In this document: positions 2,232-12,140 of the stretch, in pieces
Layout: every line of letters begins with the position of its first letter
Position numbering within the stretch: the first letter of the stretch is position 1
Assembly (NCBI GenBank): GCA_029288115.1
Contig: JARFPV010000655.1
Coordinates: 1-12,499 of the forward strand
Length of the DNA stretch: 12,499 nucleotides
Direction: 5' to 3'
Source of the DNA: Akkermansiaceae bacterium
GTDB lineage: Bacteria > Verrucomicrobiota > Verrucomicrobiia > Verrucomicrobiales > Akkermansiaceae
The notes under the pieces: model-generated
Databases searched by the model: none
What the model saw: only the letters and a program-made list of their open reading frames with translations
Told to the model about the DNA's origin: nothing
Made by a program: the position numbers and the translations under genes

Positions 2232-2906
2232 ATGCTCCATCCAAATCATCTCCGCACTCAAAATAGCCGTTCAGGATTTACCCTGGTGGAACTCCTTGTC
2301 GTCATCGCCATCATTGCCGTGCTGGCGGCACTCACGTTCTCCGTCGTCAAACGCGCACTCCTCAAGGGAAAACAAGCGACATGCGTGAACCTGATGCGCA
2401 ACGTCGAGATCGGTATGGAAGCGTATTTCATGGAGCAAAACCGCCCACCGCTGCCACCACACAAGGATGATTATGACTCTATCCTGGGCGACCCCGGCGG
2501 ATTATATTCTACCGCGCCTCTCATTTCTGTACTCCTCGGCGACGACGACCTTACATGGGAGGAAAACACCGGGGACACCTTTGATATGAGCAAACTCAAT
2601 CCAAAACGGATTCAGTACCTTGAGCTCACCCTAGCAAGTCCGGGCGAAGCTGGATTGAGAAACGATGGTAGGCTCTATGATGCGTGGGATCGCGAGATGA
2701 TGATCGCCATCAATTCACGTCTTCAGTATAACGAATTCAGCAACGGCTTCCGGGACGAAAGACTGCACACATGGGGCCTCGCCGAATGGGCCGAGATCAA
2801 ACCAGGCACTCAGAATTACGTCATGTGGTCCTATGGCGCCGATGGCGTCAAAGGTAAAGGTAGCGATCACAGGTTCGCTGGATCCGATGACGTTAAATCA
2901 TTCTAG
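2232..2906 (+). CDS. Prepilin-type (type II secretion / type IV pilin-like) protein
   Basis: A 224-residue protein with a class III prepilin leader: 15 residues ending in Gly, then FTLVE with Glu20 at the +5 position, then a hydrophobic helix (LLVVIAIIAVLAALTFSVV). A prepilin peptidase would cut after Gly15 and N-methylate Phe16, and the helix would anchor it in the inner membrane or a pseudopilus. The later region has AWDREMMIAI and a terminal GADGVKGKGSDHRF-type stretch, resembling the calcium-binding end of GspG-like major pseudopilins. No gsp/pil machinery lies nearby, and many Verrucomicrobiota carry scattered single genes of this class. It ends three bases before the selenoprotein start, so the two are almost certainly co-transcribed. 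The precise role (structural pseudopilin or surface-exposed orphan) is unknown. Confidence 0.85.
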   Translation: MLHPNHLRTQNSRSGFTLVELLVVIAIIAVLAALTFSVVKRALLKGKQATCVNLMRNVEIGMEAYFMEQNRPPLPPHKDDYDSILGDPGGLYSTAPLISVLLGDDDLTWEENTGDTFDMSKLNPKRIQYLELTLASPGEAGLRNDGRLYDAWDREMMIAINSRLQYNEFSNGFRDERLHTWGLAEWAEIKPGTQNYVMWSYGADGVKGKGSDHRFAGSDDVKSF

Positions 2907-2909
2907 AAA

Positions 2910-4082
2910 ATGAAATACCTCTTCATCCTCACCTTGCTTACCTCAGTTCTGCACGCGCAGTGGTCAGATGCTCAGAAACAACTCATCTCAACGATCAAGC
3001 CGACCGAGAGTGAGACAGGCTGGATGCGCATCAACTGGCGCACGAATTTATGGCAGGCACGCATGGAAGCTGCCAAGTCCAACAAGCCGATCTACCTCTG
3101 GGAAATGGACGGCCATCCGCTCGGCTGCACCTGAAACAACGGCGTGACCGACAGGTTGTTGGTCTTTTCAAATGCCGAGGTGCAGAAGCTGCTCAAGGAA
3201 AAATTCATTCCGGTAGCATGCAACGATTGGTACCAGCGCCGCCGAAAAGACGCCGAGGGTGAGTTCTTCCGCTCTGTCGCCAACCAGGGACCACGCAAAG
3301 GTAAGGGTGGCTCAACAAGACAAGGGCACTACGTGCTCAGCGCCGGAGGAACATTGCTGGGATTCAACAACAATCGTGGCCCTGAACGTCGGCTGCAAAT
3401 GATGCGCTCAGCATTGGAAAAATGGAACCGCCTGCCTGCCACCGACAAGCAAGCCAAGGTGCCTGCGCACGGCAAATTGGATGCCAAATACCACCGTGCA
3501 CTACCCGAGGGAGCAGCGGTCATCAAGTCCTTCACACGTGCACTCAACAAGCGCGGCAACCATTTCACTCACCTCACAGGAGAGATTCCGGGTAAGCTGG
3601 CAGCCGTCGATCACCTCTGGATCAAGCCGGAGGAACTGGCACAGATCTCTCAGCTATTCCACTCCGGAAGTGGTGCCCTACCCGTCCCATTGGCGCACCG
3701 TATCGCCCGCTATCACCTCATGGACAGCACCCGTGGCGAGCCACCATTCTGGAAAAAAGAGGAAATCAAAGACCTCTCCATCAGCATGGTCAAAAATGGT
3801 AAACTGACAGGTAAGTTTTCAATGGCGACCGACGACGGCAAGCGTGGCTACTCAGGCACACTCACTGGTCAGTTAACCTTCGGAAAAGACGCCCAACTCA
3901 TCGACTTCGAACTACTCGCCACGGGCAATCATTGGGGCGAAGGCCGATACACGCGCGGTGCCCGCCCCGGCAAGACCCCCCTCGCGATCTATTTCAAGCA
4001 TGTCGCCCGGCCCAAGGCAGCCGATCTCATACCACCCCAAGGAATTCACTGGGAAAGAGGATACTGGCAGGCAGAAAGGTAG
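2910..4082 (+). CDS. Predicted selenoprotein: exported thioredoxin-like protein with in-frame TGA (Sec75)
   Basis: Read as one gene, this is 390 residues with TGA codon 75 (3132-3134) decoded as selenocysteine. Residues 1-16 form a signal peptide (MKYLFILTLLTSVLHA), so the protein is probably periplasmic. Residues 59-75 (KPIYLWEMDGHPLGCT then Sec) place Cys73-Thr-Sec75 after a predicted beta strand, where thioredoxin-fold proteins carry their redox motif. The text then continues as NNGVTDRLLVFSNAEVQKLL and KFIPVACN, again thioredoxin-like. A second domain (about 280-385) contains GKFSMATDDGKRGYSG and a repeated beta-rich pattern that I do not recognise. The frame is identical on both sides of the TGA, no other stop occurs for 312 codons, and no credible start follows (first option GTG 3144). 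A SECIS-like hairpin follows the TGA. The stop TAG (4080-4082) lies inside a repeat. The alternative is a nonsense-mutated pseudogene. The redox role is inferred. Confidence 0.8.
3146..3164 (+). promoter_or_regulatory. Candidate bacterial SECIS element
   Basis: GACCGAC (3146-3152) pairs with GTTGGTC (3158-3164) over 7 bp, including one central G-U pair, and closes a five-base loop AGGTT (3153-3157). Eighteen bases separate the TGA from the loop. This fits the known bacterial design, in which SelB binds a short stem-loop just downstream of UGA with a GU-containing loop. The E. coli fdhF element has loop AGGUCU after about 17 bases. The hairpin lies within codons, as bacterial SECIS elements do. 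Confidence 0.72.
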
Positions 4083-5088: not shown

Positions 5089-6288
5089 TCACCTCCGCTT
5101 GTGAGATGAGTTGATCCGCTTTTGCAGCTCGGGTGTTAGATTACTATTCGCAAGCCACCGGGTTGCGGCCTCACGGTCACGCTGCAGGTAAATGCGCCCG
5201 TATCGCACCAATGACTCGTCTCTAGACTTCGGATTGCTGATGGTATTCGCCAGATTGATCGCCGCAATCGGATCCCGGTAAACAACGCGCCCTGAGTAAC
5301 CTCTGACCGCTGAGTCTCGCATCGGTGAATCTGCCATCTGGTTGATTCGGCTCGCGGCGGCCTCGGAGTCACGATTGGCCCAGCTTGAAAACACGGCACT
5401 CATTCCCTTGGTTTGCCCCTGACTCTCGGGCAAGGAAGTCAGCCAAGCAACCGCCTTCGCGGGATCCTCTACGGCAAAGTCACGAGCCACCCTACTCACC
5501 GCGGTATCTCTCAATTTCCCCTCAGGCAGATTCTCTGACCACCTCGCAGCATCCGAGGCACTCCCAGCACGCAGCAGAGACGCAGCCACAAGGTTGATCA
5601 TTTTATCGGCGTCCTCGTCGCCATTCGCAGAACGATTGAACACAAATTCTGTAGCCAGCATGGGGTCATTGTTAGATAGACCATACACCACCCCCCATTT
5701 GAGGTCATTGCGTTTTCTGCTCTCATCAGATTGGCTCTGATACCAAGCCAAGGCAGCACGTGGATCCGCACCAGCCCAGCCACCGAGACACGCTGCCATG
5801 TCCAGTTTTTTGCTATCCTTTCCAAACATCACCGCCTCTTCTCCTGCAAGCCCGCCCCAGGCGTAATGAAACTCCCTCCACTCGCTCGAGTTCGATGACA
5901 TGTGGGTGATCTGCTCACGCATCAGCATCGCATTCTCTGCCGTCAGGCCCTCAAGTAATTTTGAAAATGCAATACGTCTCTCGATCGGATCATTGCTTGT
6001 CTGGATCAGACGCCCCAGAGACTTGATTCCATTTTCGGTCAGATTGACTTTTCCCGAGTTTCTGGAAGCGGTATCGCTGGCAAACCGGTTGCTGCGTGTC
6101 GCAGAACGAACATTCCTGGCGCCGGAAGATGCATTCGCCTGGGACCGCTCCGAGTAGCGACCGCCCGGCCTGTCCCCCGCTTCCGAAGAATCAGGCGACG
6201 GTTCCGCTGAAAATTTCTTTGAACCAACAACAAAGGCTATTACCGCAATGATTGCCCACGTCGAATGAATGATGAGTGAAGTTTTCAT
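5089..6288 (-). CDS. Membrane-anchored helical-repeat protein of unknown function
   Basis: A 399-residue protein that I cannot name. An N-terminal hydrophobic segment (about residues 6-22, IIHSTWAIIAVIAFVVG) acts as signal anchor or uncleaved signal. A Ser/Arg/Gly-rich, probably disordered linker follows (about 25-80). Residues ~170-395 form degenerate helical repeats of about 30-40 residues built on DPRAALAWY, DAARWSENLPEGKLRDTAV, DPAKAVAWLTSLPESQG, DSEAAASRINQM and DREAATRWL, suggesting a TPR/HEAT-like solenoid for protein contacts in the periplasm. Similar solenoids are, from memory, abundant in Verrucomicrobiota. ATG 6288 is chosen because GGGGATT precedes it at suitable spacing and it opens into MKTSL; in-frame starts at 6300 and 6318 exist. 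It lies upstream of the MoxR gene on the same strand, so it may be the client or adaptor of that ATPase (inference only). Confidence 0.75.
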   Translation of the reverse strand: MKTSLIIHSTWAIIAVIAFVVGSKKFSAEPSPDSSEAGDRPGGRYSERSQANASSGARNVRSATRSNRFASDTASRNSGKVNLTENGIKSLGRLIQTSNDPIERRIAFSKLLEGLTAENAMLMREQITHMSSNSSEWREFHYAWGGLAGEEAVMFGKDSKKLDMAACLGGWAGADPRAALAWYQSQSDESRKRNDLKWGVVYGLSNNDPMLATEFVFNRSANGDEDADKMINLVAASLLRAGSASDAARWSENLPEGKLRDTAVSRVARDFAVEDPAKAVAWLTSLPESQGQTKGMSAVFSSWANRDSEAAASRINQMADSPMRDSAVRGYSGRVVYRDPIAAINLANTISNPKSRDESLVRYGRIYLQRDREAATRWLANSNLTPELQKRINSSHKRR

Positions 6289-6359
6289 ACTAATCCCCAT
6301 GGATACGTGCAACCACAAGCGTTTCTTGCCGAATCGCTACCTAACTACCGTAAAACACT

Positions 6360-11846: not shown

Positions 11847-12140
11847 TTATTTTCGCCGCATACCAAACGATGATTTTCTCCGATGGTGTCTAACAACCAT
11901 GACTCGAACAATACCCACATGCTCTTCGAAGATGATGTGAAAAGGGAACTTCTTGAGGTTGCGTCGTCTGATCTTGGGGAAGCATTGATCGGGGTGTTGT
12001 CCAGGATACCTACGTATCTTTTCGAGGGCAGACTCCAGATCAAGCCAAAATCGCTCATGCACCTTCTCCGAGATCTCGGCATGGCTTCGCGCAATCTCCC
12101 GTACATCCTTAACAGCCAGTCGGTGGTAAATCAGCTCCAT
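11847..12140 (-). CDS. ParE/RelE-superfamily toxin of a toxin-antitoxin pair
   Basis: A 97-residue basic protein with the pattern of the ParE/RelE (plasmid-stabilisation) fold: AVKDVREIARSHAEISEKV helix, then RFWLDLESALEKIRRYPGQH, a strand region RRRNLKKFPFHIIFEEHVG, and a terminal strand VRVMVVRHHRRKS. ParE-type members act on gyrase and RelE-type on ribosome-bound mRNA; the sequence does not decide which. The start ATG (12138-12140) follows directly on the antitoxin stop (12141-12143), so translation is probably coupled. The long open + strand frame over this region is its shadow. The module sits between two long direct repeats, suggesting recent acquisition. No Shine-Dalgarno is obvious beyond what coupling provides. 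Confidence 0.87.
   Translation of the reverse strand: MELIYHRLAVKDVREIARSHAEISEKVHERFWLDLESALEKIRRYPGQHPDQCFPKIRRRNLKKFPFHIIFEEHVGIVRVMVVRHHRRKSSFGMRRK

Follow-up and report, generated by a model that had tools for sequence, protein, structure and literature searches.

A TGA-interrupted frame of an Akkermansiaceae bacterium probably encodes an exported thioredoxin-fold selenoprotein of a new family

In a stretch of 12,499 nucleotides from an Akkermansiaceae bacterium, hereafter the window, a reading frame on the forward strand (2910-4082) is interrupted by a TGA at codon 75, which raises the question of whether this codon is a true stop, an error or a codon read as an amino acid. The original prediction took it for selenocysteine (Sec) in a new exported protein of the thioredoxin type. 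From the analysis described here, we assign a probability of about 0.88 to the reading that the gene encodes an exported selenoprotein, in which Sec75 would be inserted by SelB and would pair with Cys73 in a redox role in the envelope, the C-terminal domain serving for a substrate or partner.

When the frame was checked, it was found to consist of 390 codons followed by a TAG stop, starting with the ATG at 2910 and broken only by the TGA of codon 75 (3132-3134), exactly as claimed, the next in-frame stop being the TAG at 4080-4082 (codon 391). The 315 codons that stay open after the TGA have a chance probability of around 4e-6 at the GC content of the window. The length of 312 codons given in the original prediction counts from a GTG at 3144, so the claim of a long open frame stands with a corrected figure. 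Two of nine other frames checked in the window end in TGA, at 2154-2156, already pointed out as a normal stop, and in a minus-strand frame at 5089-6318; thus, TGA is not globally reassigned.

Across 386 genomes of the order (Verrucomicrobiales), a search with the read-through protein produced 119 matches, spread over 76 positive genomes. An in-frame TGA was present within 108 of the 110 matches that cross the site, defined as those covering residues 72-78 and with paralogs counted, and was absent from two; this figure includes stops anywhere inside the match. Among the loci retrieved for inspection, the TGA occupied the aligned position. Thirty loci of subfamily A align on both flanks of the TGA with 36-71% identity to the window protein, and a distant relative (L066) carries Cys at the site, so that homologs with either TGA or Cys there, as the prediction had envisaged, do occur.

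A search of 5.8 billion proteins returned 774 relatives of the read-through protein. Each of the best 120 of these covers 80% of the query at most, 108 of them being 300-340 aa long (308-316 aa for the 20 best of the 120), and 92 start four codons downstream of the TGA. This position corresponds to the GTG at 3144-3146, 12 bases past the first base of the TGA, which gene callers take as the start of a truncated protein of 312 aa. A homolog from Oceaniferula spumae (P0012) is 314 aa long and likewise starts directly downstream of the site. When residues 18-130 were used as the query, 34 database proteins matched, none crossing the TGA and none covering more than 46% of the stretch, a result that speaks for close relatives only, as this search needs shared 5-residue words. 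Of 32 relatives, 23 have GTG at the codon aligned with 3144 and the remaining nine have another valine codon (GTC, GTT or GTA), and no Shine-Dalgarno-like sequence was seen by eye before the GTG of the window. The prediction that a standard annotation would split or drop the gene was accurate, the database relatives being cut off at the Sec codon; the accompanying claim that no believable restart follows the TGA is to be corrected in that gene callers do restart at the GTG, a start codon that relatives do not consistently keep. Judging from these sequences, the same gene, shortened by standard annotation, is present in dozens of relatives.

With respect to the machinery required for Sec, the genome that holds the window carries selA (475.8 bits), selB (318 bits) and selD (367.1 bits), each above its cut-off. 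Its selD (L015, on contig G000:C489) has an in-frame TGA within SLASCAGUASK, a UxxK site, and UxxK is the SelD motif listed in Table 1 of PMC13188914; this selD looks like a selenoprotein gene itself. No tRNA-Sec was detected in the assembly, which is 81% complete and divided into 710 contigs: the matches of the tRNA-Sec model in it are Gln, Leu and Gly tRNAs according to ARAGORN, the tRNA-Sec gene of G362, used as a query, returned only short matches with E above 1, and ARAGORN found no tRNA within the 12,499-nt window. A tRNA-Sec with anticodon UCA was detected by ARAGORN and Rfam in G362 and G331, two genomes of the same genus that hold the nearest relatives of the gene. Thus, the expectation of Sec machinery was borne out in the same genome for the three protein genes and in the nearest relatives for the tRNA.

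Co-occurrence with selA was assayed in the same 386 genomes. A selA gene was detected in 74 of the 76 family-positive genomes compared to 47 of the 310 family-negative ones, with a Fisher p of 4.5e-44 that cannot be taken at face value because the genomes share ancestry; when only selA matches above the cut-off were counted, the figures were 70 of 76 and 46 of 310, respectively. The two family-positive genomes without selA are incomplete (83% for G005 and 72% for G381), and both have tRNA-Sec model matches above the cut-off. This model exceeded its cut-off in 181 of the 386 genomes, many of the matches being 82-86 bases long and taken for Leu tRNAs, and for this reason the tRNA-Sec count was left out of the co-occurrence.

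Downstream of the UGA, a bacterial SECIS-type hairpin is predicted at 3146-3164, with a stem formed by 3146-3153 and 3157-3164 and the loop GGU at 3154-3156. It has 8 bp, a 3-nt loop, a spacing of 19 nt from the UGA and an energy of -9.0 kcal/mol. These values agree with the bSECIS model as given in PMC13188914 (loop of 3-9 nt, stem of 4-16 bp, G in the first two loop positions, spacing of 16-37 nt and energy of -7.5 or lower), whereas many relatives fit its geometry yet miss its energy limit. Of 2162 control sites within the same genes, 2.5% reach the energy of the window hairpin, and the fold of the 45-nt segment is modestly unusual (z -2.07), with 7 of 200 shuffles as good.

The covariation of the stem was analysed in 33 subfamily A sequences, which are related, so that the shuffle figures here, like the binomial and Fisher figures elsewhere, overstate independence. 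The covarying core pairs are 3148-3152 with 3158-3162. Standard pairs occupy 99.4% of the stem cells compared to 88.7% in shuffles, cells changed on both sides number 16 vs. 4.6, and the covariation score is 0.459 vs. 0.242 (a score of 0.459 not being reached in any of 500 shuffles), slid controls giving no more than 0.083. Two of the five measures do not exceed the shuffles, these being pairs changed on both sides (2 vs. 1.9) and further pair types (8 vs. 6.8, with 75 of 500 as high). RNAalifold independently recovers the same stem, and all 37 aligned sequences, from several subfamilies, have G in the column of the loop nucleotide G3154. Codon choice within the hairpin is nearly fixed: Arg+7 is encoded by AGG in 26 of 32 cases compared to 92 of 935 elsewhere, and Leu+8 by TTG in 26 of 26 compared to 212 of 1114 elsewhere, with binomial p values of around 3e-21 and 2e-19, respectively, that are inflated by relatedness.

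Beyond these sequences the hairpin is less uniform. In the L063-L067 and L064-L072 subfamilies the best hairpin sits further downstream, and most of the distant paralogs have weak ones. When 47 distinct sites were ranked against the controls, 14 were within the lowest 5%, 24 within the lowest 10% and 23 outside the latter; L075 has no hairpin under the rule, and L036 has none at the expected place.

The above results allow the other explanations of the TGA to be weighed. If it were a true stop between two separate genes, the 312-aa protein would be made from GTG 3144, as automatic annotation has it and as the start of 92 of the 120 listed relatives at this codon, 12 bases after the first base of the TGA, would suggest. 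However, this start is replaced by GTC, GTT or GTA in 9 of 32 relatives, the alignment of the 30 subfamily A loci extends over both flanks of the TGA, the structural model described below places the thioredoxin strand upstream and the helix downstream of it, and the truncated product would have neither the signal peptide nor the initial portion of the fold, so that two genes are very unlikely. A pseudogene or a sequencing error would be in keeping with such a fragmented and incomplete assembly, but the TGA recurs in 108 of the 110 site-crossing matches from many separate genomes, with the frame conserved on both sides, and its probability is practically negligible. Under any code in which TGA stands for a residue the frame would be open, so the codon could in principle be read as another amino acid, through reassignment or read-through; against this, two other frames of the window end in TGA, codon 75 matches the position of a catalytic Cys, and selA co-occurrence, the SECIS-type hairpin and the TGA at the SelD active site all argue for Sec, making this alternative extremely improbable. 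The reading of the UGA as Sec is thus preferred, on its conservation, the co-occurrence with selA and the database matches that stop at it. At the level of sequence the conserved UGA, the SECIS-type hairpin and the Sec machinery are all apparent, and both points on which the original prediction could have failed, machinery in the genome and homologs aligned across the TGA with Cys or Sec at the site, came out in its favour.

The structure of the read-through protein was modelled with AlphaFold (pLDDT 92.7 and pTM 0.90, with lower pLDDT at residues 1-20). In the model, a strand formed by residues 61-66 and a helix formed by residues 76-84 flank the site, Sec75 lying directly ahead of the helix, in agreement with the earlier placement of the TGA after a beta strand, where a redox residue is expected. 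The N-terminal domain (about residues 20-176; 2967-3437) matches solved thioredoxin-like structures among the structural neighbours of the model. Thus, model and neighbours support the predicted thioredoxin fold, with Sec at the start of the catalytic helix. The nearest of these structures, AGR3, AGR2, ERp19/ERp18, DsbH and DsbD gamma (3ph9, 9i3f, 1sen, 2ju5 and 2fwe), match the N-terminal domain only, and none of them is known to be a selenoprotein. The roles of AGR2, AGR3, ERp18, DsbH and DsbD gamma are varied. The C-terminal beta-rich domain (residues 195-390; 3492-4079) contains conserved HWGEG and GARPG motifs, and no convincing known fold was found for it.

The N-terminus looks, when read by eye, like the signal peptide that had been predicted, probably comprising residues 1-16 (2910-2957) with cleavage after LHA, within the segment of lower pLDDT; the protein is probably exported on this basis. 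Two residues before Sec lies Cys73 (3126-3128), its proposed redox partner. All 36 subfamily A proteins have a cysteine at this position, and in three of them it is the sole cysteine. The active site reads GCTU-NNG, with Gly at the second Cys position of CxxC, so the window protein does not fit a CxxC or UxxC oxidoreductase motif (site CTUNNG). In distant stop-free relatives, the first Cys of a WCxxC motif falls in the Sec column.

From these features we infer the following mechanism. SelB and Sec-tRNA would read the UGA as Sec75, and the signal peptide would export the protein. Sec75 would occupy the place of the nucleophilic Cys of the thioredoxin CxxC and form a selenenylsulfide with Cys73 as a CxU redox pair, in such a way that the protein may serve in the envelope either as a thiol-disulfide oxidoreductase or by reducing peroxide or another substrate, with the C-terminal domain bringing the substrate or partner.

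Sec75 might instead act without disulfide exchange with Cys73, in a peroxidase or in the binding of a metal or metalloid, with another partner or with none. The loss of the second Cys of CxxC (UNNG) and the varied roles of the nearest folds would agree with this, as would the variation of the cysteine near Sec among subfamilies; one protein, L067, has no Cys before Sec, which lends this alternative more weight. Nevertheless, Cys73 is present in all 36 subfamily A proteins, and both the fold and the position of Sec are those of thioredoxin oxidoreductases. A selenoprotein of this other chemistry is considered unlikely, at a level that still deserves serious attention, and the Cys73-Sec75 pair is retained as the preferred arrangement.

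The relation to known families was then considered. Pfam gave no match to the window read-through protein up to an E of 1, and nothing in NCBIfam exceeded its cut-off, the match to NF041382/NF041383 having 12.6 bits vs. 350 (E 0.062). No entry identifiable with this protein appears in Table 1 of PMC13188914 (2026), which lists 119 families, and among the titles and abstracts returned by searches of the open-access literature none reports the family, although supplementary lists could hold one. Given the lack of matches above cut-off and of catalogue or literature reports, it is rated as a new selenoprotein family, its chemistry being assigned by inference.

Several known systems resemble it in part. 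The VPGUxxT family (NF041382, NF041383) is also a thioredoxin-like selenoprotein, and its profile weakly matches residues 6-102; however, its site is VPGU, in contrast to GCTU-NNG, and the score is far below the 350-bit cut-off. Sub-threshold Pfam matches to Thioredoxin_7 and Thioredox_DsbH (DUF255; PF13899 and PF03190) were given by paralogs, whereas the window protein has Sec-NNG in place of CxxC and a Cys two residues before Sec; the gathering cut-off of these families was not reached by the window protein, which had no match, or by the paralogs, whose matches fell below it. Eukaryotic SELENOF (Sep15) is described as having a thioredoxin-like domain with an atypical CxU pair, located in the ER (PMC6266307); it resembles the window protein in the CxU layout only and has an additional cysteine-rich domain. 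The thioredoxin-like selenoprotein Sec.1 of Brachyspira (PF13192) is listed with a CxU motif in Table 1 of PMC13188914 and is described as a small protein whose thioredoxin domain is preceded by a short extension that holds Sec (PMC5330540); thus, it shares CxU and a thioredoxin domain with the window protein but differs in the placement of Sec and in Pfam family.

Two paralogs were detected in the genome of the window, L063 (G000:C214, TGA at 801-803, motif PCGETU-NNGV) and L064 (G000:C349, TGA at 1307-1309, motif RANCU-QNGV); a further weak match to the thioredoxin-domain profile, with one TGA and E 4e-4, lies at a contig edge (G000:C214:6-143, minus strand). The motifs of other subfamilies are DKRCU and LGRCU. 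Across 14 aligned representatives, which were chosen for holding TGA, the Sec column does not vary. Cys is found at -1 in 8 of 8 QNG and DKRCU proteins, and in the GETU proteins of subfamily B (L067, L063, L075 and L076, all with TGA) at -4 in three of four and at +25 in four of four. As the GETU proteins share the Cys at +25 and L067 lacks any before Sec, a partner at -2 is not general. To judge from these alignments, related subfamilies of the order keep Sec and not always the same partner cysteine.

When a profile of the domain (E 1e-6) was used in 49 hand-chosen genomes, 38 with selA (most already family-positive) and 11 without, it matched 28 of the former and none of the latter, and 47 of its 51 matches hold TGA. 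The four stop-free matches are a fragment of G331 that starts after the site and three from a single genus (G239, G250 and G223): the Sec position is taken by Cys in L066 (G239), L065 (G250) shows no clear alignment there, and the third is a distant relative at G223:C2:149601-149858. Up to four TGA-bearing copies per genome (G130 and G290) were detected in this set. Across 387 genomes of the phylum, those of the listed matches that lay outside the order proved weak, and none held TGA; a degenerate DNA pattern searched in viral contigs gave nothing. A weak thioredoxin-like match with one TGA was observed at G091:C21:42339-42551, near selA (C21:40942-42222).

We tentatively suggest, at somewhat under even odds, that the Verrucomicrobiales possess a so far unrecognised superfamily of exported selenoproteins with a thioredoxin fold, in which Sec would have replaced the catalytic thiol while the nearby cysteine shifted (-2, -1, -4 or +25), forming a selenium-based redox system of the envelope with a SELENOF-like layout, perhaps for the folding or repair of secreted proteins. 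For its part, the family adds selenoproteins of several subfamilies to a widespread and little-studied bacterial group and suggests selenium chemistry in their envelope; being nearly always in the Sec form, seldom in a Cys form, and variable in the position of the nearby cysteine, it provides a test case for why proteins keep Sec.

The gene neighbourhood was compared between the window and 16 related loci, using the 25 largest gene clusters. The gene immediately upstream (2232-2906, forward strand), outside the present finding, has its end 3 bp ahead of the selenoprotein gene and is absent from these 25 clusters; its pseudopilin-like product carries an N-terminal methylation motif. A gene for an ABC-type ATPase (Pfam ABC_tran and related) on the opposite strand was detected in 11 of the 17 loci and not in the window; in L053 (5554-7539) and L055 (5222-7207) it lies downstream of the selenoprotein gene, on the minus strand. 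Most other shared neighbours fall in the same loci as this ATPase, which is taken for kinship and not for function. Rfam gave three matches on the window (E up to 5), all below the gathering score and looking like chance. Elsewhere in the window, the minus-strand frame at 5089-6318 encodes 409 aa without a Pfam match, and a ParE-like toxin domain is found at 11847-12140, also on the minus strand, with 25.8 bits against a cut-off of 23.
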